This document shows positions 3,071 to 28,477 of a stretch of DNA of 28,762 nucleotides, one piece after another. The position numbers and the translations under genes are program-made. A model generated the notes under the pieces. It saw only the letters and a program-made list of their open reading frames with translations. It did no database searches and had not been told where the DNA came from. The stretch covers positions 1-28,762 of the IMG/VR virus record IMGVR_UViG_3300031963_000711. One strand, 5' to 3'. Each line of letters starts with the position of its first letter. Positions within the stretch are counted from its first letter, which is position 1. This DNA is from a virus.

Positions 3071-3079
3071 ATTATATCA
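3071..3079 (-). promoter_or_regulatory. Extended -10 promoter for the ssDNA-binding protein gene
   Basis: On the minus strand this reads TGATATAAT, a perfect extended -10 element. Its TGA is also the stop codon of the primase gene. No good -35 is visible at 16-18 bases, as is common for extended -10 promoters. Transcription would begin near 3064 and give a leader of about 40 bases with an inverted repeat and an AAGGAG site. Three other exact TGNTATAAT sites in the window also lie in gaps between genes. Confidence 0.65.
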
Positions 3080-4126
3080 TGGGTTCCAAGATCGGTATTC
3101 GATATCGGAAACTGCGTTTTTAATACAGGTGATAATCTCTTTTTCTGTCATATCTCCAGCATCTTTTGCATCATGTGGATATATCTTACCATATTCATAA
3201 GAAGCCCACAAGATATCTTTATTCTTTAATCTATTGGCTATGCTGAGCCCTAACTCTCTGCCAGCCAAATCTGCATCTGTCATAATTGTTATACGATTAA
3301 AATATCTATTTAGTAATGCTAAATTTTCTTTTGATAAATGTCCGCCTAGAGTTGCAACGACGTTTGGAAATCCAGCCTGATGGATACGAATAGCATCAAA
3401 GCTTGACTCAACGACTATTACATTCTCTCCAATTCTTTTAGCCCTATGAATATTAAACATTGTTTTATTCTTTGGCAAATTAGTACTATTCTTAAATCGT
3501 TTTTCTTTAATAGATCTGCCAACAAGGCCAACTGGAATGCCGTCTGGACTATGTACTGGGACAATTACCATATCCATTTTACTGGAGTATCCTAATTTGA
3601 AATGATGCATTGACTCTTCATTTATTCCCCTAGACTGAAAGTATTCTTTTGCCTCATTTGAATTGCCTAATTCTGTGTAAAGATTGTCTAGTGTCTCCTG
3701 TGGAAATTCTTCAAAGTCTGGCTTATCTTCAAACAATGAGTTTAGAGTATCTTCAAATATATCATCTGCTTCTGACTTCTTAGACATAATAAATCGTAAT
3801 ACTTCAAACTCATTCTTGCCTAATATTCTTTTAACTAAATCTTTCAGGCCGCCAGCCTCTCCGCATGACGGATTAAAGCAGAGCCAAGCCCCAGTTCTTT
3901 CGCTAATATAAAAGCATGGAGTATTTACGTTATTATGGAAAGGGCAATACAGCACAAGGTTATCGTTAGATTCGCCAATGATATTTAGTCCAAGGCCTTT
4001 TACTATTGCTTTGACGTGACTTGGCGTATAGAACGAGGTATCAGTTTGCCCTGCGTAATCCCCTCTGATTCCCATGCCTTCTTCTTTCCTACGTAAACTC
4101 CATGGATTGTCATTATGAACTTCCAT
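3077..4126 (-). CDS. dnaG: DnaG-type primase
   Basis: This is a 349-residue RNA primase with an N-terminal CHC2-type zinc domain and a TOPRIM catalytic domain. The zinc ligands are C61, H64, C83 and C88 (YCPFHNN, WLCFNPSCGEAGG). TOPRIM shows E240 (VIVVESSFDAIR), the glycine patch TLGG at 259-262 and the DxD pair D285/D287 in MTDADLAGR. The later DAKDAGDM resembles the post-TOPRIM motif of DnaG. It is shorter than bacterial DnaG and lacks an obvious C-terminal helicase-binding domain, as in many phage primases. It overlaps the unknown gene upstream by 124 bases. An internal ATG at 4075 (M18) follows GGAAAGAAGAAGG and would cut that overlap to 73 bases, so the start is uncertain between these two. 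Confidence 0.93.
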   Translation of the reverse strand: MEVHNDNPWSLRRKEEGMGIRGDYAGQTDTSFYTPSHVKAIVKGLGLNIIGESNDNLVLYCPFHNNVNTPCFYISERTGAWLCFNPSCGEAGGLKDLVKRILGKNEFEVLRFIMSKKSEADDIFEDTLNSLFEDKPDFEEFPQETLDNLYTELGNSNEAKEYFQSRGINEESMHHFKLGYSSKMDMVIVPVHSPDGIPVGLVGRSIKEKRFKNSTNLPKNKTMFNIHRAKRIGENVIVVESSFDAIRIHQAGFPNVVATLGGHLSKENLALLNRYFNRITIMTDADLAGRELGLSIANRLKNKDILWASYEYGKIYPHDAKDAGDMTEKEIITCIKNAVSDIEYRSWNP

Positions 4127-4302
4127 GTCTCGCCTGTGAATTCTACCGAAAATGCTGGGTCTATGTCAAGGACTCTTGCATATCCCCTACTTCTCATATC
4201 ATGAGTAAGCATATTTTCATATTGATTTTTAACTCTGATCATATCAGAATCATCTGCAAATTCTACACGAATTTGAAATCTTTTAATTTGTCGATGAGTC
4301 AT
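4003..4302 (-). CDS. Unknown 99-residue protein between helicase and primase
   Basis: I do not recognise this family. The product is a soluble, slightly basic small protein. A charged N-terminal stretch (QIKRFQIRVEFADDSD) is followed by a probable helix and a beta-rich half with SVEFTGETWKFIMTIHGVYVG, then ends in basic residues. It starts inside the last 20 bases of the helicase gene and runs 73-124 bases into the primase gene, which suggests translational coupling. The ribosome site (GAAGA just before ATG) is weak. Its position inside the helicase-primase pair suggests a replication role, for example linking the two, but nothing in the sequence proves this. The ordered composition and the lack of any other gene filling 4127-4282 argue that it is real. 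Confidence 0.7.
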   Translation of the reverse strand: MTHRQIKRFQIRVEFADDSDMIRVKNQYENMLTHDMRSRGYARVLDIDPAFSVEFTGETWKFIMTIHGVYVGKKKAWESEGITQGKLIPRSIRQVTSKQ

Positions 4303-5536
4303 TCTTCATATTCGGTAGGTTTTCATAGATAGGCTTGATAACACCTCTATTGATATCCCAATCTAAGTAGAAGTCAAACTCATGTCCATGACGGTTCTTT
4401 CGGCTAACCACTTCAATCATATTTGTATTTGGATATCTGTGAATAGCCATAGCCATATCTGCATCATATTCAATTGCCTTTGACCATGCGACTTGGCTCA
4501 TCATCGGCGGTTCATCTTGGTCCGATATATCGTCAGCCGTTGCAGCGGTGATATCGACAATCGGAATATTATTTGAAACTGCTAGCAATTTAAACTCACG
4601 AGAAATATTACGGTTACGCTCTACTTCAGAATTGCTTCGCTTGTTATCATTAAAAAGCTGGTGGTAATCAAGAATAACCAAGTCAGGTTTATGCTGGTCA
4701 ATTTTACCTTGAACAGTTGCTGGTGTAACGTCAGCCAATCCTTCATTTGATACAAGGATAAATCCGTTTTTGTTCTCAAACTTCTTTTTACCCCATGCTT
4801 TAAAGTCGTCTATATTAACATCACCTTTTGAAAAGTCGCTATTCTTAAATAAACCAGAACCCATAATAGTATAGATACGGTCACGCATATTCTCTGGTGA
4901 CATCTCAAGCGAGATAATCATAGGCTTAAATCCTTGTTCCCACGCCTTACATGCAAGATATGATGTAAACCAAGTCTTACCACGTCCTGGCCAACCAATA
5001 GCAACAATTAAATGTCCTGGCGCCATACCTGTAGGATATGCTTTATCGATTGCTTCAATACCAGTAATAATTCCTGGGCTACCGCCCATTGCTGCTGAGC
5101 GCTCTTTAACGGATGCAAAATGTTGTTCTGCCAAACCGATATCTGTGAGATCAATGTCACGAATATTATTTGTATGTCTGCTTAGCCCAGCAAGCTTGCT
5201 TTGAATATCTGCAAGAACTCTTGATGCTGAATCTTCTTTAAGCGCTGCACCTGCCTGCAAAATAATAGACTTAAGCTTATTAGAAATATATTCATTCTTT
5301 AACTGGTCAAGGTAGTATCCAGTCTCTGCTTTTGCTGACGGGTCTGGCTCAAAATCTTTATGTCTTTCCATGATGATGCCGACTTCTGGGACAGCTTTAA
5401 ACTTATAATAATAATTCTTTAGGCTTTCCCACACGTCACGATATGAAGTAAATAGTTCATCAACGTTAGCGGCAAGCAAGGTGCTAATATCCTTGTTATT
5501 GCATACTGCTGTAATTACTTTTGCTTCTATATTCAC
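4283..5536 (-). CDS. dnaB: Replicative DNA helicase, DnaB family
   Basis: This 417-residue SF4 helicase should unwind DNA ahead of the fork as a hexamer. The N-terminal domain (about 1-110) is helical and resembles the DnaB N-domain. The RecA-like core has the Walker A motif GWPGRGKT at 181-188, MIISLEMSPENMRDR at 206-220 (H1a-like with catalytic E211), Walker B LVILDYHQL at 286-294, and DITAATADDISDQDEPPMMS around 328-347. The C-terminal VVSRKNRHGHEFDFYLDWD resembles the arginine-finger strand of DnaB. The start codon is GTG, sharing the four bases GTGA with the preceding stop, so translation is probably coupled to the small gene before it. The motif set leaves little doubt. Confidence 0.95.
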   Translation of the reverse strand: MNIEAKVITAVCNNKDISTLLAANVDELFTSYRDVWESLKNYYYKFKAVPEVGIIMERHKDFEPDPSAKAETGYYLDQLKNEYISNKLKSIILQAGAALKEDSASRVLADIQSKLAGLSRHTNNIRDIDLTDIGLAEQHFASVKERSAAMGGSPGIITGIEAIDKAYPTGMAPGHLIVAIGWPGRGKTWFTSYLACKAWEQGFKPMIISLEMSPENMRDRIYTIMGSGLFKNSDFSKGDVNIDDFKAWGKKKFENKNGFILVSNEGLADVTPATVQGKIDQHKPDLVILDYHQLFNDNKRSNSEVERNRNISREFKLLAVSNNIPIVDITAATADDISDQDEPPMMSQVAWSKAIEYDADMAMAIHRYPNTNMIEVVSRKNRHGHEFDFYLDWDINRGVIKPIYENLPNMKNDSSTN

Positions 5537-5856
5537 TCTTGTCCGCCTTCTACTAGCTTCTTCGTCTGCTCTCTTAGCATCGCTCTATTCGCCTTATCCT
5601 TTTCAATATCTGACTGCACCTGATCTATTCTATCAAAGTTATAGAAAAAGAAATTAAGTGGGTGCCCAGATTTACTGGTTTTAAAATAATATTCAAGCAA
5701 CTCTTTGGCACGGTCATATCCTACACTATCAATGACATCTTGCATAGCCCATTTCTCACGAAACTTATTTATACGAGGCTTCTTTTTGTATTTATCTGTG
5801 TATAGGTTTTCGTATAAAGATATTAGGATATAAGGCTCTTTACTTTTTGCCGCCAC
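5533..5856 (-). CDS. Small protein before the helicase, possible helicase loader
   Basis: The 107-residue product is highly charged and predicted mainly helical: FREKWAMQDVIDSVGYDRAK near 32-51, then LLEYYFKTSKSGHPLNFFFYNFDRID, then a long basic-acidic C-terminal helix. Phage genes directly before a DnaB-type helicase and coupled to it often encode loaders (SPP1 G39P is a small helical example), so a helicase-loader role is plausible by position and size. I see no diagnostic motif and no Walker box. The start is GTG with GAGG seven bases upstream, overlapping the previous gene by 17 bases. The stop TGA overlaps the GTG start of the helicase. Confidence 0.75.
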   Translation of the reverse strand: MAAKSKEPYILISLYENLYTDKYKKKPRINKFREKWAMQDVIDSVGYDRAKELLEYYFKTSKSGHPLNFFFYNFDRIDQVQSDIEKDKANRAMLREQTKKLVEGGQE

Positions 5857-6049
5857 TTAATTCCTCTTCCACCTCACGAGTTTTTTGAATCAACTTTTCT
5901 TCAACAAATTTATATACACGCTCTGTAGCAGAATCTACGTTTTCTCCACTACGCACAATATCCTCTACGCCAATACCAATCTTAATACTTTCATAGTTAC
6001 CTAAATTTCTGGTAAAAGATAGATCTACTTTTACTTTTGTATCTGACAT
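5840..6049 (-). CDS. Conserved-looking 69-residue phage protein of unknown function
   Basis: The N-terminal half reads as alternating beta strands (KVKVDLSFTRNLGNYESIKI), followed by GVEDIVRSGENVDSA and a long charged C-terminal helix ending KTREVEEELSGGKK. Proteins with this FTRNLGNYES-like strand followed by an amphipathic helix recur near replication genes of actinophages in my recollection, without known function. It has a strong AAAGGAG site. Its ATG shares one base with the stop of the preceding zinc finger gene (TAATG), and it overlaps the next gene by 17 bases. Confidence 0.8.
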   Translation of the reverse strand: MSDTKVKVDLSFTRNLGNYESIKIGIGVEDIVRSGENVDSATERVYKFVEEKLIQKTREVEEELSGGKK

Positions 6050-6156
6050 TACTTGTGCTCCTTTAGGTGTCTATTTAAAGTATCGTGAGCAAATATACCC
6101 CAACGAACTTCTGTTTCTTTTTTACATATTGGACAAATAACTACTTTGCCTGTCAT
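6049..6156 (-). CDS. 35-residue C2H2 zinc finger miniprotein
   Basis: This gene is too short for usual ORF cut-offs but is well supported. It has an ATG at 6156 in ATGA overlap with the previous stop, a GGAGGA-like site just upstream, and a stop that shares one base with the next ATG (TAATG). The product carries C8 and C11 (VICPICKKE) and H30 and H34 (LNRHLKEHK), a complete C2H2-type finger with a long 18-residue centre. With only about seven residues on one side and one on the other, the finger is the whole protein. It may bind DNA or a replication protein. The precise fit between two genes makes it very likely to be translated. Confidence 0.82.
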   Translation of the reverse strand: MTGKVVICPICKKETEVRWGIFAHDTLNRHLKEHK

Positions 6157-6641
6157 TCCTCCGCCTTCCATACTGGTACGAACTTGCCGTCGCTAGTCTT
6201 AGTATACAATATTAAATTATGTTTGAGAAGAGCTAATAATTCTGAACGTGAAGGAACTTCAGAAGTATATCCGTCATCTAAAATAAACTGATGTATTTTT
6301 AATATGTCGTCTTCCGTTAACATATACATAGACCACCCAGCATCGTCTGGATTACTAATTGGATATATTTTAGTTGGCTGCTGGATCTTGCCAGCCAAAA
6401 TATAATCTTCTACAGTAATTTTATGTCTATTTAAAAGCTTGGCGGCTTCACGCAAGGTATATGCTTTTTGCATATGCTTATTAACTAAAGAATAGTTATA
6501 CATAACCCTACGTCTTTCAGGATAACACCAAGCCACTATTTCATCTCTTGCACGAGATATACGTAAAGACTTGTGTATCTTTCCGTCTAAGAAGAAATAG
6601 AGAAGTCTTTTAGGTGTTCGAATTCTTTTTGTTCCAGCCAT
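6153..6641 (-). CDS. MerR-like helix-turn-helix DNA-binding protein
   Basis: This 162-residue protein has a central excisionase/MerR-like winged helix: AYTLREAAKLLNRHKITVED at 60-79, then ILAGKIQQPTKIYPI as the wing, and MLTEDDILKIHQFI after it. The N-terminal part (DGKIHKSLRISRARDEIVA at 20-38) is basic and beta-rich. The C-terminus has PSRSELLALLKH at 130-141. I recall similar proteins near actinophage helicase genes, annotated only as HTH proteins. It could be an origin-binding or regulatory protein and is a candidate ligand for the palindrome at 7620-7634. The ATG at 6641 has AGGA upstream and overlaps the zinc ribbon gene by 55 bases. The stop overlaps the next start by 4 bases. Confidence 0.85.
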   Translation of the reverse strand: MAGTKRIRTPKRLLYFFLDGKIHKSLRISRARDEIVAWCYPERRRVMYNYSLVNKHMQKAYTLREAAKLLNRHKITVEDYILAGKIQQPTKIYPISNPDDAGWSMYMLTEDDILKIHQFILDDGYTSEVPSRSELLALLKHNLILYTKTSDGKFVPVWKAEE

Positions 6642-6775
6642 CGTCCTAGTGGGCTTCTATCCTTATTAATCATCCAGCGCTTGCCGCATAGAAGACAAAA
6701 AAGCTCTACGTGTAACTTCTGCGAAAAGACTCTATCCACAAAGACTCTTCCGCCACACTTTTTACAACTCATCAT
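6587..6775 (-). CDS. Small zinc ribbon protein
   Basis: The 62-residue product has two CxxC knuckles, C4/C7 (MMSCKKCGGR) and C27/C30 (FCLLCGKRW), spaced as in a treble-clef or zinc ribbon fold. A basic tail follows. This is a structural zinc site rather than an enzyme, and nucleic-acid or protein contact is likely. The start is the first of two ATG codons (ATGATG), with AAGGTG about eight bases upstream and overlap with the stop of the metallophosphoesterase gene. The last 55 bases overlap the HTH gene. Confidence 0.8.
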   Translation of the reverse strand: MMSCKKCGGRVFVDRVFSQKLHVELFCLLCGKRWMINKDRSPLGRWLEQKEFEHLKDFSISS

Positions 6776-7578
6776 AATTTAAACACCTTGCCATCAACAA
6801 CGCACGAATAGTCTGGAGACACTTCAATAATTTGAACGTGTGGCCACTTTCCGTTTTCAATATGTGCAATAGCAAATCCTTTTTGCCAATCATGGTGCTG
6901 GGTATACTTCATGCCAGGGCTCTTAGGATCACACATGTGTCCAATTTCATAGCCACGAATTGTTTCTCCCTTACCCTTATTACGTAATTCATATGTTTGA
7001 AAATGAGATGCAATTCTGTGTGAGTGTCCACGAATTAATGAAATCTGCATATCATTCATGTCCTTACGAACTGCGCCAGTGTCTGCTACAGATAATCCAT
7101 GATGAACATGGATATCTCCATAGCGTTTCTTTGGCAACTCGTCATAATAAATATAATCATAGCCAAGGCTATCTAAATTCCATAATGCTTCTGGAGTTAC
7201 AACTTTAATATGGTCTGGCAACTTGGCATCTACATAATTAAAAATACGTATGTCGTGATTACCTAAAGCAGTAAATAGTTCTGCATTCTTGCCTGCAACC
7301 TCACGATTCATTGTATAAAATTCTCTTGCACCTTTTGCTTCATGTTGCATAAGAGGCATAATCGAATGACCATTTTGGTCTTTATACATCTTTAAGAATT
7401 CTGCAGATCTTCCCTCTGTATATTTGCTATAACATGCTTGATCGTCGGTGTCTCCAAGAATATCTACTACATTTGGCTTCCACCATTTCATTACTTCAAA
7501 CCAAAGCTTAATCATTTTATTGTCTTGATATGGAAATTGCTGATCTGACGATAGCATCCATTTGAGATCGTTTGTCAT
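6772..7578 (-). CDS. Calcineurin-like metallophosphoesterase
   Basis: This 268-residue enzyme has the motif series of the dimetal phosphoesterase superfamily: SSDQQ at 10-14, DILGDTDD at 39-46, ALGNHD at 104-109, HVHHG at 157-161 and GHSHR at 184-188. The first motif reads D-x-Q instead of the usual D-x-H, a change that could alter metal affinity or substrate. The substrate cannot be told from sequence; DNA ends, nucleotides or phosphoproteins are possible. It is the first gene of the replication transcript, behind a strong promoter with an overlapping palindrome, with AAGGAA about six bases before the ATG. It overlaps the next gene by 4 bases. Confidence 0.92.
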   Translation of the reverse strand: MTNDLKWMLSSDQQFPYQDNKMIKLWFEVMKWWKPNVVDILGDTDDQACYSKYTEGRSAEFLKMYKDQNGHSIMPLMQHEAKGAREFYTMNREVAGKNAELFTALGNHDIRIFNYVDAKLPDHIKVVTPEALWNLDSLGYDYIYYDELPKKRYGDIHVHHGLSVADTGAVRKDMNDMQISLIRGHSHRIASHFQTYELRNKGKGETIRGYEIGHMCDPKSPGMKYTQHHDWQKGFAIAHIENGKWPHVQIIEVSPDYSCVVDGKVFKL

Positions 7579-7596
7579 ATGTTCCTTAATTATATA

Positions 7597-7615
7597 AAGT
7601 TGCAGACAGCAACTT
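7597..7615 (-). promoter_or_regulatory. Perfect inverted repeat in the leader of the replication operon
   Basis: AAGTTGC and GCAACTT form a perfect 7-bp stem with a 5-base loop, lying between the -10 box and the ribosome site of the metallophosphoesterase gene. In RNA it would form a small leader hairpin; in DNA it could be a second operator. It is distinct in sequence from the palindrome at 7620-7634, so the two are unlikely to be bound by the same dimer. Confidence 0.5.
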
Positions 7616-7619
7616 ACAT

Positions 7620-7634
7620 GCTACAAATTGTAGC
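7620..7634. promoter_or_regulatory. Palindromic operator over the -10 box
   Basis: The 15-base sequence GCTACAA-A-TTGTAGC is a perfect palindrome with a single central base. It completely covers the -10 hexamer (7627-7632) of the replication promoter, so a dimeric protein bound here would block polymerase. The regulator is not identified. The HTH protein at 6153-6641 in the same operon is a candidate, or a host or phage repressor outside the window. Confidence 0.65.
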
Positions 7635-7654
7635 ATTTGATTTCATTCTGTCAA
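7627..7654 (-). promoter_or_regulatory. Strong sigma-70-like promoter of the replication operon
   Basis: On the minus strand there is a consensus -35 TTGACA (7649-7654), a 16-base spacer, and -10 TACAAT (7627-7632) preceded by TGC, an extended -10. This is the best sigma-70-type promoter in the window. It lies 49 bases before the ATG of the metallophosphoesterase gene and directly after the last tail gene. No terminator is visible between them, so readthrough from the late genes is possible. Confidence 0.85.
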
Positions 7655-7657
7655 GGG

Positions 7658-8487: not shown

Positions 8488-8611
8488 TTTTCTCATTAAG
8501 AAGTTGAGTAATCTCTGCCCGTAAAATTGCAATTTGAGTTTCATAATTCGACACAATCTCGCCAATGCGTTGCTGCAGGGCGGTAATAACTAGTTCTGCT
8601 TTTTCTGCCAT
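8453..8611 (-). CDS. 52-residue coiled-coil protein
   Basis: This short gene is supported by a strong TAGGAG site ending four bases before the ATG at 8611. Its product is an almost continuous amphipathic helix (AELVITALQQRIGEIVSNYE, then TQIAILRAEITQLLNE) with heptad-like hydrophobics and a charged tail NATKTEDSDSK. It follows the S74 fibre gene by 31 bases and overlaps the start of the tandem-repeat gene. A small trimeric or dimeric coiled-coil partner of the fibre is plausible. No family is recognised. Confidence 0.75.
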   Translation of the reverse strand: MAEKAELVITALQQRIGEIVSNYETQIAILRAEITQLLNEKNATKTEDSDSK

Positions 8612-8642
8612 TATTCTCCTAATGTAGACTTAAAGGATACCA

Positions 8643-11423: not shown

Positions 11424-11424
11424 A

Positions 11425-12378: not shown

Positions 12379-12385
12379 AATTCTC

Positions 12386-12790
12386 CTATGGCTTAATCCT
12401 TGCATCTACACCAGCAATATTTTCTTTATTTTTACTTGAATTTCTAATTTTTATTTTTACTCTTACCTTTAAAGCTTTTGTGACTGGGTCATTATATTCT
12501 ATTTTTTCTACATCTTCTATGTCTGAAAGATCTGGAACATCTGATAATTCTATTTTACCTTTTTCTTCTTCTTTCTTTTCTTCTTCTTCTGACTTTTCAG
12601 ATCCAGCTATAATTGAACCAGATATATCATTGATTCCGATTGGAATTACAGATCCCGTTACTTTGTATTCAGAGTCTTCTCCTATAATAATGACTTCGCT
12701 AGGATCATACCAAATTAAATCAGGATGACCCGCTGGCAGCACTCTCTTGCCGCCTGCCACTATGTTTTGTTTAGGGATTCTCTTCATCAT
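12386..12790 (-). CDS. Glu/Lys-rich tail-region protein of unknown function, probably leaderless
   Basis: The 134-residue product has an ordered start (MMKRIPKQNIVAGGKRVLPA, then DLIWYDPSEVIIIGEDSEYK), a strongly charged linker near 63-80 (SEKSEEEEKKEEEKGK) and a basic beta-like C-terminus (KALKVRVKIKIRNSSKNKEN). I recognise no family. The gene has no Shine-Dalgarno. Instead a perfect extended -10 lies so close that transcription would begin at or beside the ATG. It follows the hub-like gene by 25 bases and is separated from the next gene by 7 bases. A linker or adaptor within the tail tip is possible. Confidence 0.72.
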   Translation of the reverse strand: MMKRIPKQNIVAGGKRVLPAGHPDLIWYDPSEVIIIGEDSEYKVTGSVIPIGINDISGSIIAGSEKSEEEEKKEEEKGKIELSDVPDLSDIEDVEKIEYNDPVTKALKVRVKIKIRNSSKNKENIAGVDARIKP

Positions 12791-12796
12791 CTTTTA

Positions 12797-12805
12797 ATTA
12801 TACCA
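12797..12805 (-). promoter_or_regulatory. Extended -10 promoter giving a leaderless transcript
   Basis: The minus strand reads TGGTATAAT, with exactly six bases (TAAAAG) between the -10 box and the ATG at 12790. The usual 6-8 base distance to the start point would place +1 on the A of that ATG. No ribosome site exists, so the message should be leaderless, a mode common in actinobacteria. No good -35 is seen. It would boost the distal tail-tip genes independently of the long upstream transcript. Confidence 0.65.
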
Positions 12806-12815
12806 TTTAGCAAAA

Positions 12816-14507
12816 CTAAAGAGTTCTGCCAGTAATTTCGGTTTCTAGCCCCCCTTGATATCTTTGAGATACTTTAACCACAATAATTTTTTGTTCTACC
12901 GTTAGGTCCTGATATGGGTAATCTATTGTAATTATGTCTCCAACTGAAATCAGTGGATTGCCAAAAATTTTCATTGTAATTATTTTTGCTTTATTTACAA
13001 CCCTGCTTTGTATCCATTCTGCTAAACTCTTTACATCTTTAACATTTTGCAACCAGGTTGATTCGAAAATAACTGGTTCAGAAGCAGCATATCCAGCAAC
13101 TGGCGAGGTCTCATAAACTATCTCTCCAGAGAAACCAATTGTATTCCCAAATATAGAAAGCTGATTAACTCCTCTATCTGAGAGCGGAACTGTAATGGAG
13201 CTGTTGTTTAATACAAAAACGTCTGCTTTAAAATTATCATATGATTGTGCAATTACCTGTGCCAGCTTGTTCCCACCAGTTGTCCATTTAATTGGAATTG
13301 CTGGGGCATTTGAGAACCTGACAGACTTTTTTGCTATTTCTCTTACTACCGTTCCAAATTCATCGAATGCATTTTTCTTAGAAATAATATCTACATCGTC
13401 ATTTGTGGCATTATAAAGCATATCTCCATAAGCTAAATCTAAAAAGTCTTTACTAAATTGTCCGTTATAAAAATTAAGTAGCTGGTAGTCCTTGTTATAT
13501 TCTTCTTGATTCTTCAAAGTATCTGCGTATACATAATCAAATATAGTTGTTCCAGAAATTCCAACTAACGCTACACGTTTTGATGGATAAAGTATTTCAT
13601 TATCGTTTGCTGCAGACGAAGTATCTGTAGCTTCTATTTTAAATCCATTTATATAAGCCGTAATTGTAACACTCTTATTTTCTATTTTTACCTTAACATC
13701 AACATTATAAACTTTGCCAGCAAAAAGTTGATCTAGAGTTGCCCTATTTCCTTTTTGAGAATCTGTAAGCTTTTTCATATTTTTTCCAACAAGCTTAACA
13801 ATCTTTACTGGAGAGGTGCTAGCTGCTGCGGCTGTGGCGCTTGTTTCTAAAAATATAAAATATCCAGAGTCATTTGAATCATTTAAAAAGAATCCAAGTG
13901 CTGCTCCTTGAGGCTTATATTTAATAAGAGGAGGCATAATAATAGATGTTCCAAATGAATAATATCCAGGACTATAATTTCTTACTGGCTTACTTTCTCC
14001 TATAGTTTCGTTTGTGTATGTTCCAAGCTGTATTGAGTCAAAGTCTCTATATGCAAATGTAAACTTATTGTCTACTGATTCTCCGCCAGTTAACTTAAGA
14101 TATGATTTAGCTGTAACTTTGTCTCCGACCTGTTTTGGCGATCCAGTTTTTGAAGCATTTGTAATGGTGGACGAAAGCTTATAATAAGATACTTTTTTAT
14201 TTCCTTCACCAGCAGCGCTTATAAATTGTGTTGTTATCTTATAATAACCATTTTCAGTTAATCCAGAAATTGTTACTGGGTTTGTGGATGATGTTGTTGT
14301 TTGGGCTGCGGCTGCAGAAGTAGTGTCGTCTACCATTCTTTGATATATAACTTTATATGTAGTTATATTATTTTTACCAGCAACTCCTAATGTAGATAAG
14401 TTGACTGATATAGATGTATTAGAAACTTTGCTTACTATAGGAGCAAATAGTTGATTTATGGTTGAGTCTAATGTTCCGCCGCCTGCTTCTTCTTCAAGAT
14501 AAGCCAT
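12816..14507 (-). CDS. Minor tail protein, FN3 plus hub-like C-terminus
   Basis: I start this at the ATG at 14507 (MAYLEEEAGGGTLDS), which shares one base with the previous stop (TAATG); the product is 563 residues. A reading from 14540 only adds antisense-like residues inside the upstream gene. The N-terminus has an FN3-like unit (SISVNLSTLGVAG, TYKVIYQRMVDD, TISGLTENGYYKITTQFI). Residues about 120-330 look like a LamG/concanavalin-type sandwich (YYSFGTSIIMPPLIKY, GYFIFLETSA, ITAYINGFKIEA). The C-terminus (AEWIQSRVVNKAKIITMKIF, then GNPLISVGDIITIDYPYQDL) matches the pattern closing gp27-like hub or tail-spike proteins. It follows the hub-like gene, supporting a tail-tip role. Confidence 0.83.
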   Translation of the reverse strand: MAYLEEEAGGGTLDSTINQLFAPIVSKVSNTSISVNLSTLGVAGKNNITTYKVIYQRMVDDTTSAAAAQTTTSSTNPVTISGLTENGYYKITTQFISAAGEGNKKVSYYKLSSTITNASKTGSPKQVGDKVTAKSYLKLTGGESVDNKFTFAYRDFDSIQLGTYTNETIGESKPVRNYSPGYYSFGTSIIMPPLIKYKPQGAALGFFLNDSNDSGYFIFLETSATAAAASTSPVKIVKLVGKNMKKLTDSQKGNRATLDQLFAGKVYNVDVKVKIENKSVTITAYINGFKIEATDTSSAANDNEILYPSKRVALVGISGTTIFDYVYADTLKNQEEYNKDYQLLNFYNGQFSKDFLDLAYGDMLYNATNDDVDIISKKNAFDEFGTVVREIAKKSVRFSNAPAIPIKWTTGGNKLAQVIAQSYDNFKADVFVLNNSSITVPLSDRGVNQLSIFGNTIGFSGEIVYETSPVAGYAASEPVIFESTWLQNVKDVKSLAEWIQSRVVNKAKIITMKIFGNPLISVGDIITIDYPYQDLTVEQKIIVVKVSQRYQGGLETEITGRTL

Positions 14508-16774
14508 TACTTCCACACATCCTCTTCTATTTGATACCAATTACTTATAGTTGCACCTGATGTAGCTGGATGGTATGTTTTTTCCGTTCCAAACACACCC
14601 CTTGCTTTAATTCTATATCTACCAGTTGGTTTAAAATATTGTGGTCCAGTTTTAGACAAAGATCTATATTGTGCCCAGTCTGCTTCTGATCCTACAAAAA
14701 CTGAAATCTTAGTAGTTGAATTAAGAGGCTCATACTCAAATTCTATTCCATCATATTCAAAAACTTCAGAGTCAACTAAAAAATATCCTGAATAATTAAA
14801 TGTAGATTCAAAACTTACAAATGGATCTAGATTGTCTATATCTATATTAAAGTTAACTAATTCAGCTGGTGTGTCTGACTGAATTTCATATCTCAATCCG
14901 CCAGATATTAAAAATGAAGGTTCTGATGCCCATAGGTCCGTTGCTGTTTGTGTATAAAGAGAACTCATTGGTGTTTTCCAAATTACTTTAACCTGGTTTG
15001 CGGATGCTAATTCTTGCTTATTAAAGTCTACAATATTAGGCAACTTGTTACCACTTTGAGCATAATAAAATTCCCAATCTGCAGTTGATCTAGTGTATAG
15101 ATAATCTCTTGTATAAAATTGTAAAATATTATTTTCATCAAAGTATGCGTTCATTTGAATATCTCTACATAGCTCTTGGATAGAATCCCATACAGTTTTA
15201 TTGTTTTCGCTCCACCATAAAGTTAATGTTGGAATAGATGTATCTATAGATACATTTGACTCATTAAGCTTTACGTTAATATTATAATTAGAAAATCCTA
15301 TAGAGTCTAACATGCCAGTTATAATTGACGTTACTGGGGCATACTCATATACTAAATCTGGTATCAATGTTTCCATTAATTGTTTTGAGCCATCAAGAGC
15401 TGATACTTCTACGTCTCCAAATTGAGATATGTTGTGCGAATCTAAATAAAATGTTCCCTGTTCAACTCTGTCATATTTTGATGACCCCTCAGTTACAGCG
15501 CCGTTAGAATGATAAACTTTTAGATGAGGCCTAATCTCTGCATTTTTAGCAAAATATATTACATCATTTGGGGCAGGGGTTACGGTCCAATCTTCATCTC
15601 TATTATAAGTTAAAACTTTTAAGTCAGACTGATCGTATTTTGCCAATGATAAACTTAAATTGTTTGCAGTTATATTGCCTACTGGCAGGATGTCGTTTGC
15701 GTTAGAAGATGACTCTTTACTTATATCAAAAGAAATTAAGTCTGGGCTTATGTCCTTTACCCATCTTGCAGATATTTCTACAAGACCTATTCTTCTATCT
15801 GTTCCCGCCGACGGAGTGTTTATTGTTATAGATTTAATTTCTTTAGGGGCTGGATACGATATTGCTTGAGATGAACTAAATGGTGGCGTGTTTGACCATG
15901 CTGTTCCATTCCAATAAATTATTAACGTTCCATTAGATGGTACTGAAATTGGAGAAAGCGTTACGTCCGTAGTGGCATCGTTATAGTCAATAGAAACTGT
16001 ACATGTTGCTGGTAAGGCGTGATACTTTTCGAAACGAATAACTATTTTATTTGCTAAGGCTGGTTTAGTTGGGGTAGCAGTTCCAGATGAATTTACAAGA
16101 GTTGCTGTTTTAGAAAGACTAGTTTCAGAAACTTGAGATAAAGCATTTGTAACAGAAAATGTACGGGAATCTGGAATGCTTGTAATTACTTGATTAACTA
16201 AATTTAAAGATGAGTTTCCTGAACCAGATATGGTAACTCTTTTTCCAATTGTAAATCCATGATCTGCTGATGTTTTATAAACTACTTTTGATCCTGTTGC
16301 ATATGCTTCAATTATTGACGCTGTGCTTTGAACATATTTAACTGTAGCGTTAACACCAGTATTTTCTGGAGTTATCCAGTATTTATAATATGTTGTTACA
16401 CCTGGATAGTATACTCTTGGGGCAGTTGAAGGGTAAGGTACAGTTCTATAGTCATAAAATTTATTATCCCCAGTATGTTCTGGATGCGATGGGTTTGTAG
16501 GATCAGTATTAATATAATATTTAATTCCAGAAAGAGTTGGCCTAAAAGGTTTTAAGACTGAGTCTATTGGAAATAATTTTTTGTATGGATTTAAACGCTT
16601 TTCTTCTGCTTGTGCATCGATATCTGTCTTATAGTCGTCATCATCAATTGTAGTAGATATTGTTATATTGTCTAATAGAAGATTCATGTTATATTCTATT
16701 GTGCATCCCGCCGAAATATTTACGGTGCGGGAGTTATAAAAAATATCTTTTAATTGAGAGCTAGCAGATATCAC
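14507..16774 (-). CDS. Tail hub-like minor tail protein
   Basis: This 755-residue protein shows hub features in its C-terminal half: DISPDLISFDISKESS near 344-359, DVEVSALDGSKQLMETLI, and TVWDSIQELCRDIQMNAYFD followed by ENNILQFYTRDYL. The last is the typical segment before the final beta domain of gp27-like tail hubs. The N-terminal half holds a beta module with KTSADHGFTIGKRVTISG and VITSIPDSRTFSVTNA, often found inserted in phage tail proteins. The start is GTG, sharing one base with the previous stop (TAGTG), with GGAG nearby. Its place after the distal-tail-like gene fits the siphovirus order. Hub assignment is by pattern and order only. Confidence 0.83.
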   Translation of the reverse strand: MISASSQLKDIFYNSRTVNISAGCTIEYNMNLLLDNITISTTIDDDDYKTDIDAQAEEKRLNPYKKLFPIDSVLKPFRPTLSGIKYYINTDPTNPSHPEHTGDNKFYDYRTVPYPSTAPRVYYPGVTTYYKYWITPENTGVNATVKYVQSTASIIEAYATGSKVVYKTSADHGFTIGKRVTISGSGNSSLNLVNQVITSIPDSRTFSVTNALSQVSETSLSKTATLVNSSGTATPTKPALANKIVIRFEKYHALPATCTVSIDYNDATTDVTLSPISVPSNGTLIIYWNGTAWSNTPPFSSSQAISYPAPKEIKSITINTPSAGTDRRIGLVEISARWVKDISPDLISFDISKESSSNANDILPVGNITANNLSLSLAKYDQSDLKVLTYNRDEDWTVTPAPNDVIYFAKNAEIRPHLKVYHSNGAVTEGSSKYDRVEQGTFYLDSHNISQFGDVEVSALDGSKQLMETLIPDLVYEYAPVTSIITGMLDSIGFSNYNINVKLNESNVSIDTSIPTLTLWWSENNKTVWDSIQELCRDIQMNAYFDENNILQFYTRDYLYTRSTADWEFYYAQSGNKLPNIVDFNKQELASANQVKVIWKTPMSSLYTQTATDLWASEPSFLISGGLRYEIQSDTPAELVNFNIDIDNLDPFVSFESTFNYSGYFLVDSEVFEYDGIEFEYEPLNSTTKISVFVGSEADWAQYRSLSKTGPQYFKPTGRYRIKARGVFGTEKTYHPATSGATISNWYQIEEDVWK

Positions 16775-23741: not shown

Positions 23742-23753
23742 TTATATTACTTA

Positions 23754-24412
23754 TTACTCCTTAGAGTATCCAAGACCTAATCCAATTCCGAATCCTTGCT
23801 CCTGTGCCATTTGTCCTTGCAGTGACACTACGTCATCTGTGCTGGCCTCTATGCCCATAGCTCGTAAGCGGATATCTTCAAAGGTTGGACCTTTGCTTTC
23901 TTGCTCATCTCTAATGTCGACTCCTTGTAAAGATGCCAAGAATATTCTGTTGTCTTTCTCTCTCTTTTGCAACGATTCTATCGTTTGCAATAGTTCTGGT
24001 AGAGAAAGGTTTTCTTCTAGTTCTTGGTAATTCTTCCAAGCTCCTACAAGAAAAACTTGTCTTACTAAAGCGGCTAAGTCTAGTTCTGACCAGCCAGAAC
24101 CGCCGCCGCTATTAGGTTTGGGTCGTCTAGTTTAATTCCTCCACAGATTTCTAGAATTCTGTTGATTGTTGGAACATCTAGAGCCTCTTCCAAAGCGTCA
24201 CGATCTTTTACTAAGTCTGGAAGTTGTAGTTCCAAAGCAATAGCACAAGCGTCGATCAACACGCTTAATGATTCATTTTCTGTTGTTGATTCTTGAGCCT
24301 TATTCATGGCTGCCATGAATTTTCTCAACTGTTTAATTGATAGCGGCTTCAACTGAACTGTTGCGCCGTTCTGTAATTTAATTTCTTCTACGTCGTATAC
24401 TGTAGTAGCCAA
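23754..24412 (-). CDS. Tail assembly chaperone fusion (GT type) by -1 frameshift
   Basis: The fusion is complement(join(23754..24116, 24116..24412)). Ribosomes slip back one base at CCCAAAC and give a 219-residue protein: the first 99 residues of the shorter chaperone plus 120 from the -1 frame. The -1 frame is open from just upstream of the slip site to 23754. It encodes PNSGGGSGWSELDLAALVRQ and then VFLVGAWKNYQELEENL, the linker and helix expected in actinophage GT proteins. A separate ATG start at 23990 would lack these 42 conserved-looking codons. Such fusions bind tape measure and tube protein during tail assembly but are absent from virions. Position directly before the tape measure supports the call. 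Confidence 0.93.
24080..24412 (-). CDS. Tail assembly chaperone (G type)
   Basis: This 110-residue, helical protein is the unshifted product of the chaperone locus. It begins with a beta hairpin (YDVEEIKLQNGATVQLKPLS), then helices (IKQLRKFMAAMNKAQES, LSVLIDACAIALELQLPDLV, ALEEALDVPTINRILEICGG) and ends NLIAAAVLAGQN. In lambda-like phages the G form is made in large excess over the GT fusion and the ratio matters for tail assembly. The start codon is TTG with an excellent AAGGAGGAT site; no ATG is better placed. It is the first gene after a terminator and its own promoter. Confidence 0.93.
   Translation of the reverse strand: MATTVYDVEEIKLQNGATVQLKPLSIKQLRKFMAAMNKAQESTTENESLSVLIDACAIALELQLPDLVKDRDALEEALDVPTINRILEICGGIKLDDPNLIAAAVLAGQN
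24116..24122 (-). other. Programmed -1 ribosomal frameshift site CCCAAAC
   Basis: The heptamer fits X XXY YYZ in the zero frame (GAC CCA AAC, codons 98 and 99 of the chaperone). After slippage the tRNAs re-pair on CCC and AAA, and decoding resumes at CCT. In the -1 frame a TAA lies just upstream and in the zero frame a TAG lies 36 bases downstream of the site, so the shift must occur in this short interval. No other heptamer of this type was seen in it. Confidence 0.9.
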
Positions 24413-24438
24413 TTTATCCTCCTTGGATAGTTATAAAC

Positions 24439-24467
24439 ATTATAACAAATGCATATTATTAATACAA
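24439..24467 (-). promoter_or_regulatory. Promoter for the tail chaperone and tape measure genes
   Basis: On the minus strand -35 TTGTAT (24462-24467), a 17-base spacer and -10 TATAAT (24439-24444) preceded by TGT give a good extended sigma-70-type promoter. It starts three bases after the terminator of the major tail gene, so it restarts transcription for the next block. The leader would be about 20 bases and contain AAGGAGGAT. Confidence 0.75.
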
Positions 24468-24470
24468 GCA

Positions 24471-24498
24471 CAAAACCCCCATAAAAATGGGGGTTTTG
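24471..24498 (-). terminator. Intrinsic terminator after the major tail protein gene
   Basis: A perfect 12-bp stem (CAAAACCCCCAT / ATGGGGGTTTTG) with a 4-base loop. In the minus-strand RNA the stem ends in GGGGGUUUUG, the usual hairpin plus U-run. It begins 18 bases past the stop codon. The same hairpin read on the other strand also ends in a U-run, so it may work in both directions. Confidence 0.88.
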
Positions 24499-24516
24499 CT
24501 AATAGCCTAAATTAAA

Positions 24517-25227
24517 TTAAGCCAATACTCGGTCAATAATCTTACCGTATTCCGATCCAACATAGTTGGCGTCTGGAAGAAGACGGAAAGTCACTGGGAA
24601 TGTAGTTGGGGTGTTACGTGCAAGTGTGAACTGGCTCTGTTGAACAGAGAGAACACGGCGAGCATAATAAACACGCTCAGTTGTTGCTGATACTTCGGTT
24701 GAGCTAGACTTTGCGAGTGTTGGAGCTTGTCCAACTGCAAATAGCTGACGCTCTGTCGGAGCAATACCGAGAGCACCTGCCTCTAGACCAAGAGTAAGAT
24801 CTCTATCGTCAGCGCTTGTTGCACCCTTTGTTGGGTAGTTGTCTGTTGACGCAGATCCGTTCTTAGTTAGAGTAGAAGTACCTTGTCCAAATACTGTTAG
24901 AACGTTCTGTAGTGTTCCTTCTGTCATTTCAGTCATAATCATGACCTGCATAGCAGACTTGAACAACTTAGCTGCGTCAAGCAACTGATCTACGGTAACA
25001 TCTTCGTATGTTGGGTTATAAGTAATTTGAAGACCATTATTTGTAAAACCTACGTTACGTACAGTTGCTGCGCTGTTTAGAGTTGTTGCTGCAGAAGTAC
25101 GAGCAGCCAACGTAATAGTACCTGAATCAAGAAGATTCTCAGTATATGTTGGGTCTGTCGAATCCTTTACAGAAATGTAAACTGGAGCTGCACCGACGAT
25201 AATGTTCTTAGCATTATTAAATGCCAT
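24517..25227 (-). CDS. Major tail (tube) protein
   Basis: The 236-residue product is beta-rich and fits tube proteins of siphoviruses: NAKNIIVGAAPVYISVKDST at the N-terminus, then NVGFTNNGLQITYNPTYEDV (the strand pair with the typical VTVDQ loop), a helix VDQLLDAAKLFKSAMQ, and TFPVTFRLLPDANYVGSEYG near the end. It lies between the tail terminator and the tail chaperones, the invariant tube position. Expression signals are those of an abundant protein: TAGGAGGTAG before the ATG and a strong terminator behind it. Confidence 0.92.
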   Translation of the reverse strand: MAFNNAKNIIVGAAPVYISVKDSTDPTYTENLLDSGTITLAARTSAATTLNSAATVRNVGFTNNGLQITYNPTYEDVTVDQLLDAAKLFKSAMQVMIMTEMTEGTLQNVLTVFGQGTSTLTKNGSASTDNYPTKGATSADDRDLTLGLEAGALGIAPTERQLFAVGQAPTLAKSSSTEVSATTERVYYARRVLSVQQSQFTLARNTPTTFPVTFRLLPDANYVGSEYGKIIDRVLA

Positions 25228-25331
25228 TGTTTCTACCTCCTAATTGTAAAAATTAATTGTTAGGCTGGCTAGGCCCTTTCCTCTTTCCTCTATGTCTAAT
25301 TTTAGGCCATAGGGGGTCAAAAGGCAAACTA
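25228..25331 (-). promoter_or_regulatory. Leader region of the major tail gene, weak promoter candidate
   Basis: This 104-base gap holds no gene. At its upstream edge the minus strand reads TATATATAAT (-10 hexamer 25331-25336, inside the stop region of the previous gene) without a TG extension or a good -35, so it is only a weak promoter candidate. Further down come a TTGACC near 25312-25317 without a matched -10, a purine run (GAGGAAAGAGGAAAGGG) and the gene's own ribosome site. No clear terminator is present. A long leader for a highly expressed gene is plausible. Confidence 0.3.
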
Positions 25332-25847
25332 TTATATATATCTACCAGTAGAGTCTGTGTTTCTGGAATATTTCATCTCAAGAATTACATCTGCCGAAAA
25401 GAATCCCTGTAGCTCCTCTGAGGGAGCGGTAGGGGACATATCGGCTACATAGATGCTATGGAACTTAAAGGTATTTGAATTAATTCCAGGAAGTAGATTT
25501 ACATCTTTTGCAGACTCATCCATTCTACGGAATTCATCTATGAAGAAATTTCTAATCTCATTTATCTCAGAGACATCTGTTGAATAGATGGTAAATAGGA
25601 TTTGCTCATTGCATATTAACCAAAGGGTATCATAGGATACGCCTATCTTGTCATAGATTATATGCTTCTTCCCGCTCAAAAATTGATTCATTTCTGGCTG
25701 TTGCTGTACTGGGAATATTGGCACTAGGTTTTCCGCTATATTGTCGCTCCAATAAATGTCTGGATCGAATATGCCTGCCGCCTGCAATTTGTTCCATAAA
25801 TATTTACGAAGCTCAAGCATTGCATCTATTTTATAATTAACTGGCAT
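25332..25847 (-). CDS. Tail terminator or completion protein
   Basis: The 171-residue product is mixed alpha/beta: LELRKYLWNKLQAAGIFDPD at the start, then strands (ENLVPIFPVQ, SYDTLWLICNEQILFTIYS), a helix EINEIRNFFIDEFRRMDESA and a last sheet (FKFHSIYVADM, FFSADVILEMKYSR). This order matches the gpU-like tail terminator fold. Gene order (neck, terminator, tube) supports it. GGAGGAG precedes the ATG, which shares one base with the previous stop. Confidence 0.75.
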   Translation of the reverse strand: MPVNYKIDAMLELRKYLWNKLQAAGIFDPDIYWSDNIAENLVPIFPVQQQPEMNQFLSGKKHIIYDKIGVSYDTLWLICNEQILFTIYSTDVSEINEIRNFFIDEFRRMDESAKDVNLLPGINSNTFKFHSIYVADMSPTAPSEELQGFFSADVILEMKYSRNTDSTGRYI

Positions 25848-26626
25848 TATAGGGCTCCTCCGAATGCTGCAGATAAAGCTGCATCTGCTTGAATTGATAT
25901 AGTATTAGGATTAAATGAATATTTAACAGTTTTAATTTCTGCTGGAAGTTTTAAAGCTCTGGTCATAGAATTATTAAATAGTTGTTGGAAGCCTGAATTT
26001 CTAATTGATATATTAACTAGATTAGATTTAAAGAATCTAGAATATGTCATCATAAATGAATTTTTAACTCCAACTCCTCCTGGCCTTTTAACGGTCACAG
26101 AGGCCCCTTCTGGCATGAACACTGTATAACCATTGGTTTCGAATACAAGGCGCTTAGAATGGCGTGGAGCAATTTTAAGGGGCATTCCAGCTTCCATCAC
26201 AGACGCCTTATTTACAAATACGTGTCTACGATTTCCTTCTGCTGATGCAAATGTTTTAGAAGGCATGAATTCATATGAAACAGAGAATCCAAGTCCGTCT
26301 TCATTAAACTTATTTAATTTAAATAGTCTTGCTGAGCTGTCTCCGACCTGCCGCCACTCGTAGACATGATGCAATGATCTTGGTTTTACCCTAGCTTGAG
26401 AATCTATAAATTCGCCAAAATCTTTATCTATCTGATTAAATATAACTTCTCTAAATTTATTTTTAAATGCTGCATTTGCAGACAATTTGCTTATTACTTG
26501 GGCGTTATAATATACATAAGCAGATACTTGGGCAACTAAACTTTCTTCCAATACTTTACCTTTGGATTGGGTCATCAAAGACCTTAGTCCGCTAGATGCT
26601 TGTACTAATGGAATACTATAGTCCAA
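25847..26626 (-). CDS. HK97 gp10-like neck or tail-completion protein
   Basis: This 259-residue protein begins with helices (VLEESLVAQVSAYVYYNAQV, FREVIFNQIDKDFGEFIDSQ), then PRSLHHVYEWRQVGDSSARL, a pattern seen in the HK97 gp10-like group that caps the tail or joins it to the head. The middle is beta-rich (HVFVNKASVMEAGMPLKIAP, GYTVFMPEGASVTVKR), followed by helices and a beta end. It is longer than typical gp10 proteins. The start is TTG with GGAG ten bases upstream, overlapping the previous gene by 11 bases. Position between head closure and tail terminator supports the call. Confidence 0.7.
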   Translation of the reverse strand: MDYSIPLVQASSGLRSLMTQSKGKVLEESLVAQVSAYVYYNAQVISKLSANAAFKNKFREVIFNQIDKDFGEFIDSQARVKPRSLHHVYEWRQVGDSSARLFKLNKFNEDGLGFSVSYEFMPSKTFASAEGNRRHVFVNKASVMEAGMPLKIAPRHSKRLVFETNGYTVFMPEGASVTVKRPGGVGVKNSFMMTYSRFFKSNLVNISIRNSGFQQLFNNSMTRALKLPAEIKTVKYSFNPNTISIQADAALSAAFGGAL

Positions 26627-27044
26627 TGTTCTGATTCTCCGATCTCTTTATTACTGAGTTGTATGCTATTACTCTACCGAATCCATCTGTCACTGGTGTG
26701 CTTCCTATGACTTCAAATACTGTTGGAGTTTCTGTTGGATAATTTAATTCAACCCAAATTGGGTTATTTTTTGAATCACGGATATTTGTAATCTTCTCTC
26801 TAAATGTTAATCTACCAGCAGTTCTTACCTGAAGTATTTCTTCATTTGTATACTTTGTTCCAAACGACTGAATGCTGTTTGTGCGGGTAGATGAAGAGTT
26901 GCTAATAACTCCTTTTGCTGAGCAGTCTACGGTTTTATAATATATCCATTCTTTTACTATAGCGCCAGTATCAGGATTTTGTAAATCTAGCTGTCTATAG
27001 ATATCCATCTTCATGGATAATACTGAATCTACTAGATCCAACAT
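26616..27044 (-). CDS. Head closure (stopper) protein
   Basis: The 142-residue product has the small beta-barrel pattern of SPP1 gp16-like stoppers: KMDIYRQLDLQNPDTGAIVK, WIYYKTVDCSAKGVIS, EEILQVRTAGRLTFREKITN and VFEVIGSTPVTDGFGRVIAY. It should seal the head portal after packaging and bind the tail. The ATG follows the adaptor stop without a gap (TAAATG) and has no clear ribosome site, so it is probably translated by re-initiation. Order after the adaptor fits. Confidence 0.72.
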   Translation of the reverse strand: MLDLVDSVLSMKMDIYRQLDLQNPDTGAIVKEWIYYKTVDCSAKGVISNSSSTRTNSIQSFGTKYTNEEILQVRTAGRLTFREKITNIRDSKNNPIWVELNYPTETPTVFEVIGSTPVTDGFGRVIAYNSVIKRSENQNIGL

Positions 27045-28037
27045 TTAGAACACGACCATTTGTGTTAGAACATATGCACCAAGTAATTTATCTGCCAATT
27101 GATTTCCAGTTCCTGTATATGCATCACCAGAATATTCAAACTGCCAATCAAATGTCTGTATGTTCTTTACGTATTTATTTCTCCAAACAGTATCTTTAGC
27201 AAAGTAATCTTTCATTAATTCCATACATGCTAGTTGAACATTATTTGGAACTTCCTCCCAACCATATCTTCCTTCAACTCTATATCTTACATTTCTTGAA
27301 AAGGCCATTCCATCGTATGTATCGTTAATTGATGGAGGAACCATTCCATTTGCAATATATACAGTATTGTCAAGAAGTCCAGTTCTATCAATTCTTATTC
27401 CAAAATTTGTTTCTGAGATAATCGGCTCGTACAGCCAATTATTAACAACTGGGCTGGCAAGATTATCTACTAACAAAATATCATTATGGTATAGTTTATG
27501 AATATCAGTAATTCTATATGGGAGCGGAAGAATATCTGAGTCATTTCCAAAAACTACTTCTACATCGTCATATGTAAAGAAGTCTTGTCCTGTATAATCT
27601 TCTATTAATTTACGAGCAAATCTTTCTGCCCGCTTAACATCTTCGTATGTCTTATAGTTTGGATCGCTTGGGTCTACTCCAAAATTAAGTTCATTCATAG
27701 CCTCATAAATATTTGTATATGGGGTTGTGATATCAACATATGAAGTATGGGCAACAGCATTTGAGCTTACTGCATACTCCCAAACCAACTTAAATTTTCT
27801 TTGTCTTTGAGTATAACTCAATGGAAGGCTTACATAGTAACTTCCAGTATCTGTTTCTGATGCTGTAGAAGTTAGGGTAGTTAGCAATGTGCTTGGGTTA
27901 ATTGCTGGGCTGATGGTTGCGTCAGAGGTTACATCGTATACTTTTACAGTTGGAACTGAATCTGATGCTGTTATTTCTCCCTGCCAAAATACTCTATGAG
28001 TAATTGGGGAATTAGTATTTATGTATATCTCTGCCAT
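27045..28037 (-). CDS. Head-tail adaptor with extra N-terminal Ig-like domain
   Basis: Residues about 108-330 look like a head-tail connector of the gp6/gp15 type: NIYEAMNELNFGVDPSDPNY, a helix YEDVKRAERFARKLIEDYTG, loop strands (DDVEVVFGNDSDILPLPYRI, DIHKLYHNDILL), GRYGWEEVPNNVQLACMELM and a last helix AKDTVWRNKYVKNIQTF. The first 105 residues are an added beta domain (HRVFWQGEITASDSVPTVKV, ETDTGSYYVSLPLSYTQRQR), Ig-like in pattern. The ATG lies 9 bases after the previous stop with a poor ribosome site. The protein should dock under the portal; the extra domain would face outwards. Confidence 0.82.
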   Translation of the reverse strand: MAEIYINTNSPITHRVFWQGEITASDSVPTVKVYDVTSDATISPAINPSTLLTTLTSTASETDTGSYYVSLPLSYTQRQRKFKLVWEYAVSSNAVAHTSYVDITTPYTNIYEAMNELNFGVDPSDPNYKTYEDVKRAERFARKLIEDYTGQDFFTYDDVEVVFGNDSDILPLPYRITDIHKLYHNDILLVDNLASPVVNNWLYEPIISETNFGIRIDRTGLLDNTVYIANGMVPPSINDTYDGMAFSRNVRYRVEGRYGWEEVPNNVQLACMELMKDYFAKDTVWRNKYVKNIQTFDWQFEYSGDAYTGTGNQLADKLLGAYVLTQMVVF

Positions 28038-28046
28038 TTAATTGGC

Positions 28047-28442
28047 TTAGTTGTAGAACTCCTGCACTTCTGCTGGAGTTGCCATAACAAAGCCTTCCTC
28101 CTTATCAAAAATTGCTTGGGCTGTATCTTTGTCCATAGCAACAAATGGGTGATCCTTAGTAAATCTATGTCCCATAATTTCATAACTAAAATTTGCTCTA
28201 GTCATCTTTACCAATACCATGTCTTCTTGCTTAATTGTTTTAGTTTCTGTTTTCTTTGTTACAGTGGCATTCATTTCTTCTTCTTCCTGTATTCCTTTGG
28301 CCTTCTTATAAATAGCCCAAGTTACGCCTTCTTCTGCTAATGCAGCTATAATATCTTTTTTGCCTTTTTGGTCTGTTACGTCTACTGCAAAGTCTTCCGC
28401 AATTTGCTTTAGCTCTGCAACTTTTAATGTATCAAATGACAT
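28047..28442 (-). CDS. SAP-domain structural protein downstream of capsid gene
   Basis: The 131-residue product has an N-terminal SAP/Rho-N-type helix pair (TLKVAELKQIAEDFAVDVTD, then KGKKDIIAALAEEG, residues 5-39), a charged linker (EEEEMNATVTKKTETKTIKQ) and a C-terminal beta-like unit (MVLVKMTRANFSYEIMGHRF, TKDHPFVAMDKDTAQAIFDK, EEGFVMATPAEVQEFY). The SAP unit commonly binds DNA. Small proteins of this layout sit right after the capsid gene in many actinophages in my recollection. A role in the head near the portal or in capsid decoration is possible. AAAAGGAG is six bases before the ATG, and a promoter lies in the gap upstream. Confidence 0.82.
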   Translation of the reverse strand: MSFDTLKVAELKQIAEDFAVDVTDQKGKKDIIAALAEEGVTWAIYKKAKGIQEEEEMNATVTKKTETKTIKQEDMVLVKMTRANFSYEIMGHRFTKDHPFVAMDKDTAQAIFDKEEGFVMATPAEVQEFYN

Positions 28443-28468
28443 TAATTTCTCCTTTTATAGGTTATTTA

Positions 28469-28477
28469 ATTATAGCA
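28469..28477 (-). promoter_or_regulatory. Extended -10 promoter downstream of the capsid terminator
   Basis: The minus strand reads TGCTATAAT, a perfect extended -10. No good -35 is seen at 16-18 bases, where the U-run of the terminator lies. Transcription would begin near 28462 and give a 20-base leader with AAAAGGAG. It restarts expression of the connector genes after the capsid terminator. Confidence 0.68.

Follow-up and report, generated by a model that had tools for sequence, protein, structure and literature searches.

The stretch of DNA analyzed here, hereafter the window, spans positions 1 to 28,762 of the IMG/VR virus record IMGVR_UViG_3300031963_000711, and the element in question is a nine-base motif, TGNTATAAT, in which TG stands directly before a -10 hexamer. 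Mapping of the window genes via open reading frames (ORFs) and profile hits leaves gaps that sum to about 750 nucleotides (nt), and part of one of them, 23991-24079, is probably coding through a frameshift in the tail chaperone genes. In the 28,762 bases the motif occurs four times, at 3071, 12797, 24439 and 28469, always on the minus strand and never on the plus strand; the minus strand is the coding strand and carries every recognized gene of the window. A fifth, related site, TGCTACAAT, is present at 7627. All five fall between mapped genes and precede one that is encoded on their own strand; the site before ssb shares three bases with the primase stop codon (Table 1). An earlier note on this DNA had rightly listed the four exact copies, their close relative at 7627 and their confinement to gaps, but it had estimated the gaps at about 500 bases in total. 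Three of the five sites are without a visible -35 element, as it had also claimed: none is seen before ssb and gene 12386, and gene 28047 has merely a degenerate TTTCCT/TTTTCA made by the T-tract of the preceding terminator. The tail assembly chaperone gene (tacA) and the 7627 site do have -35 hexamers, TTGTAT and TTGACA, at spacings of 17 and 16 nt.

Table 1. Coordinates of the promoter-related features in the window, with an example of a second site class from a relative.
Feature	Position	Strand	Remarks
Extended -10 TGATATAAT, promoter of ssb (gene 2355-3023)	3071..3079	-	no -35; kept in 40/55 relatives
Inverted repeat GACGG-ATCTATA-CCGTC, ssb leader	3045..3061	-	between promoter and Shine-Dalgarno; paired changes in relatives
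Shine-Dalgarno AAGGAGA, ssb	3030..3036	-	
Promoter of metallophosphoesterase gene: TTGACA 7649-7654, 16 nt, TGC-TACAAT 7627-7635	7627..7654	-	TTGAC...TAnnnT and hairpin in most relatives
Hairpin and U-rich tail between the 7627 promoter and its gene	7597..7615	-	from ~12 nt past the -10
Extended -10 TGGTATAAT, promoter of gene 12386-12790	12797..12805	-	no -35; 13/13 relatives
Intrinsic terminator after major tail protein gene (24517-25227)	24470..24499	-	stem before the -10 in 28/30 relatives
Promoter of tail assembly chaperone gene (tacA, 24080-24412): TTGTAT 24462-24467, 17 nt, TGT-TATAAT 24439-24447	24439..24467	-	
Shine-Dalgarno AAGGAGG, tail assembly chaperone gene (TTG start)	24418..24424	-	
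Intrinsic terminator after major capsid protein gene (28542-window end)	28493..28522	-	stem in 20/29 relatives
Extended -10 TGCTATAAT, promoter of gene 28047-28442	28469..28477	-	29/29 relatives
Shine-Dalgarno AAAAGGAGA, gene 28047-28442	28448..28456	-	
TGTCRGT block, example	G001:59804-68351	minor strand	six long relatives L339-L374

What is not explained by chance is the location of TGNTATAAT, not its number. Over-representation across the whole window was rejected, as the total of four equals that of shuffled sequence (mean 3.3); of the comparison with shuffled sequence that the earlier note had proposed, the total is thus not above chance, whereas the placement in gaps is. On the coding strand of the gaps, a first-order Markov model of gap composition predicts 0.06 copies, four are observed, and none of 20,000 gap simulations gave four. 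Within genes, codon shuffling predicts 2.6 exact copies and the real genes contain 0, so that the many intragenic matches that the earlier note had named as a possible objection were not found. Generic scans of the window for sigma-70 hexamers returned only background.

Orthologous gaps supply evidence of conservation. The relatives are 328 loci from viral contigs, found with five window proteins; for each ortholog of 25 window genes we took the 150 nt upstream, removed near-duplicates and counted exact TGNTATAAT. Among non-redundant relatives, the motif is kept upstream of ssb in 40 of 55, of gene 12386 in all 13, of the tail chaperone gene in 23 of 30 (29 of 30 for TATAAT alone) and of gene 28047 in all 29; at the remaining 21 genes it appears in 0-4 cases each. 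The reversed motif showed no comparable retention upstream of the 25 genes. In the alignments for gene 28047 and gene 12386, all non-redundant rows qualify, and the nine bases stand fixed amid variable flanks; the rows of the ssb and tacA alignments were selected by the motif, and there only the counts are informative. For gene 12386, relatives came from tblastn on the loci of the relatives set, which gave 20 usable upstream regions, while a scan of viral contigs for relatives of genes 12386-12790 and 12816-14540 confirmed none. A looser match, TGNTANNNT, before the helicase gene (58 of 83) was not counted, as it falls within the preceding gene, in coding sequence that is conserved.

At two of the sites a terminator precedes the promoter. 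In relatives, the upstream regions of gene 28047 and the tail chaperone gene present a stem, 14-21 or 21-37 nt, the promoter and a strong Shine-Dalgarno sequence, and before gene 28047 the stem usually ends 20 nt ahead of the TG. The gene preceding gene 28047 is the major capsid protein gene in the Streptomyces relatives. An Rfam scan of the window gave only sub-threshold matches, among them BSnc120 across 24470-24499, an identity that we set aside as a look-alike of the terminator there. Downstream of the chaperone promoter, the pair of chaperone genes (23754-24412) is interrupted by a gap and is annotated as joined in the Streptomyces phage Sham; a programmed frameshift in this gap is likely.

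At ssb, the TGA within TGATATAAT also terminates translation of the primase gene (3077-4126). Of the relatives in the listed set that lack the promoter motif, most end primase with TAA, as several do, or with another codon. The inverted repeat in the ssb leader shows paired changes in relatives, GAYGG/CCRTC (GACGG/CCGTC, GATGG/CCATC), GACAG/CTGTC and GATAG/CTATC, and may be a stem or a DNA operator, a possible candidate for autoregulation. The covarying GAYGG-N7-CCRTC repeat persists in relatives without the ssb promoter. Beyond ssb, between it and the DnaE-like polymerase gene, lies a hairpin without a U tract (2330-2349, GGGGGCCC-GAAA-GGGCCCCC); its GAAA or TTCG loop is found in close relatives only, and the hairpin was rejected as a part of the system, since only 11 of 73 relatives have any such GC hairpin before dnaE. 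At gene 12386, TATAAT ends 6 nt before the ATG (12790; 5-8 nt in relatives) and no Shine-Dalgarno sequence is seen, from which the mRNA is predicted to be leaderless.

The related site at 7627 serves the metallophosphoesterase gene (6772-7578), the first gene of the replication-side block. Its downstream hairpin with U tract is present in 74 of 89 relatives, in about 70 of them 7-17 nt past the -10, and the pairing is kept while the stem sequence varies. Candidate roles for this hairpin are those of an attenuator, a terminator, a tiny RNA or a 5′-end stabilizer. In the window, the -10 at 7627 doubles as the left half of a palindrome, ATGCTACAATTTGTAGCAT.

How does the motif behave across long contigs of relatives? 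In 16 contigs of 100-120 kb, TGNTATAAT is found 335 times and the reversed pattern 159 times, an approximately twofold excess. In six relatives of about 110 kb, non-coding DNA makes up 11-20% of the sequence yet holds 92 of the 139 exact copies; reversed and scrambled control patterns in the same six show no gap enrichment (8/58 and 9/105). Because the motif is enriched in gaps of whole relatives, the phage from which the window derives would carry perhaps ten or more promoters of this kind, the window being one piece of it. Of the non-redundant gap sites, 78 lack the TGTCRGT element described below, and 22 of these have an ATG exactly 6 nt past TATAAT. This peak agrees with initiation about 7 nt past the -10, and leaderless mRNAs are accordingly predicted for many sites in the relatives, as for gene 12386.

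The closest annotated proteins of the window belong to Streptomyces phages of the Stanwilliamsviridae, which mostly keep TGNTANNNT in two gaps. Downstream of the capsid gene, the gap contains TGCTACAAT in Targaryen, Mildred21 and Angela, TGATATAAT in Muntaha, and one TGCTAGTAT with CTATAAT nearby in Ankus; before the chaperone gene, Moab, Sham and Faust have TGGTAAACT. As variants are kept in the same gaps of these phages, the promoter position and module order are older than the exact letters. Two of the gaps thus occur in culturable Streptomyces phages, where the promoters can be tested now.

Taken together, we consider it highly probable that the sites are extended -10 promoters of the sigma-70/sigma-A type, placed where one transcription block gives way to the next in a large freshwater actinophage with kinship to the Stanwilliamsviridae. 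This common promoter family, already suggested in the earlier note, is supported by conservation in the same gaps of dozens of relatives, by gap enrichment, by sensible distances to ribosome-binding sites and start codons, and by the terminators upstream. An actinobacterial type of host is indicated by the closest annotated proteins, found in Streptomyces phages, and by WhiB, for which all 16 long relatives searched are positive above cut-off. Motif, placement, conservation, spacing and terminators are observed; from them we infer initiation, the identity of the sigma factor, timing and the purpose of the resets. In the proposed mechanism, host RNA polymerase with its housekeeping sigma factor would open the DNA at TATAAT, held by the TG, so that a -35 could be dispensed with. 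The terminator at each of two breaks, capsid-to-head-tail and major-tail-to-chaperone, would end the upstream transcript and the promoter about 20-28 nt 3′ of it would restart transcription, which may reset expression after a very abundant product. The ssb promoter would be fitted into the 3′ end of primase, the TGA stop providing the TG, and at 12797 the start point would land on the ATG to give a leaderless mRNA.

Such promoters are ordinary in kind, well conserved and useful. Extended -10 promoters of the sigma-70 type do not need a -35; like them, the phage sites carry TG directly before the -10 and lie upstream of genes, and at ssb, gene 12386 and gene 28047 their -35 is absent or degenerate. 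They differ from the general case in that a single consensus recurs at several module breaks of one phage family, in one instance drawing its TG from a TGA stop. In Mycobacterium smegmatis, mapped starts have no -35 consensus, TANNNT is the preferred -10 of SigA and ~24% of transcripts are leaderless (PMC6448022). The phage sites, of which 22 of 78 have the ATG 6 nt past the hexamer, resemble these promoters but adhere much more closely to the complete TATAAT and the TG than the host-type consensus does. A phage factor replacing the -35 contacts, as put forward in the earlier note, is therefore not required: mycobacterial promoters commonly have a weak -35 or none (PMC6448022), tacA and 7627 have a -35, and no sigma factor family was found above cut-off in the 16 long relatives. 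Several observations weigh against the promoter reading or restrict it. At the 78 gap sites, -35 matches of at least 4 occur at 26, about twice the ~11 in shuffles, if mostly with modest likeness; hexamers resembling a -35 are present at tacA, at 7627 and at some further sites, and their absence is thus no uniform property of the class. Two of ten sampled Streptomyces gaps (Beuffert and Annadreamy, before the chaperone gene) contain GGTAAACT without the TG, and the genes of the six relatives were called with a simple script of our own.

Could the pattern arise without any promoter function? An AT-rich, stop-containing motif might simply fall into AT-rich gaps and be avoided in genes, and the window total does equal the shuffled expectation. 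We give this explanation practically no weight: the 0.06 copies expected already allow for gap composition, the reversed and scrambled controls are not enriched in gaps, and it is refuted by position-for-position conservation in orthologous gaps while other gaps are without the motif. It is also very improbable that the sites are bound by another factor, for instance an alternative sigma of the phage, or act as a processing signal and merely resemble a -10. The consensus is exactly that of the housekeeping -10 and the spacing to the start codon fits initiation; Sigma70_r2 (PF04542) has no match in the 16 long relatives, and Sigma70_r4 (PF04545) gives solely matches below its curated cut-off, in 8 of 16. 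These sub-threshold region 4 matches, which are what such a factor could appeal to, are ORFs of about 50 amino acids at G001:36920-37015 and at orthologous places in seven other long relatives.

A further explanation keeps the promoters and adds a purpose: a phage WhiB would occupy region 4 of the host sigma-A and weaken those host promoters that depend on a -35, whereas phage promoters with an extended -10 would stay functional. WhiB is present in the 16 long relatives and also in both Streptomyces phages searched, one phage WhiB matches the WhiB3 and WhiB7 chains of solved structures and retains the tryptophan, the four cysteines and the GVWGG turn, and many sites are without a -35. If correct, this would resemble T4 AsiA, a phage protein on sigma region 4 that goes with -35-independent phage promoters, with the difference that the candidate here is a WhiB. 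WhiB proteins do bind sigma-A region 4 (PMC10245118, PMC3905903). Nevertheless, we regard the idea as unlikely, as mycobacterial promoters are normally weak in their -35 without any phage (PMC6448022), tacA and 7627 have -35 hexamers, and the occurrence of WhiB in every relative searched does not discriminate. Its appeal is that it would give the ubiquitous, unexplained phage WhiB a concrete, testable role. Independently of it, the extended -10 promoters matter since freshwater actinophages are abundant and mostly uncultured, and a promoter map would offer operon boundaries, predicted starts and leaderless genes from sequence. A literature search, in which "-10" could not be spelled, returned no paper on extended -10 promoters of actinobacteriophages.

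Among the gap sites of the relatives, a second class stands out: TGTCRGT is followed after exactly 9 nt by a -10 (usually TGNTATAAT or TGNTACAAT), then by AACGAAAGG and a small gene. Its form is TGTCRGT-N9-TAnnnT, mostly TGTCRGT-N6-TGNTAYAAT, and in six unselected relatives the offset is 9 for 49 of the 55 TAYAAT that lie within 40 nt of TGTCRGT. Each phage has 8-13 such sites (TAnnnT at offset 9), all of them on the other strand from the main genes and clustered in a single block of small genes about 9-11 kb long; 62 of 68 sites in the six relatives are in gaps. The extended pattern was found in at least 120 viral stretches, and 77 of 81 loci examined have proteins related to those of the six phages, whereas the class is absent from two Streptomyces phages and from the window. 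The block looks like an early regulon with a regulator site of its own, pointing to an undescribed early regulator. The start-associated and early repeated elements of cluster K mycobacteriophages are comparable in that many copies of one short element stand before small genes; their sequence differs, and TGTCRGT is fixed 9 nt upstream of the -10. The element is apparently undescribed, and a literature search for TGTCAGT found nothing relevant. One may go further and imagine a two-class program on host sigma-A, in which an early-looking TGTCRGT set with its undescribed regulator is complemented by a bare extended -10 set for structural and replication genes that stays active while WhiB captures region 4 as a counterpart of AsiA; we think this unlikely.

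A scan of bacterial genomes for the TGTCRGT early element gave one match, a 110-kb contig in a metagenome-assembled genome labeled as a cyanobacterium (L375; 11 of 14 genome matches), which is probably a mis-binned phage contig.

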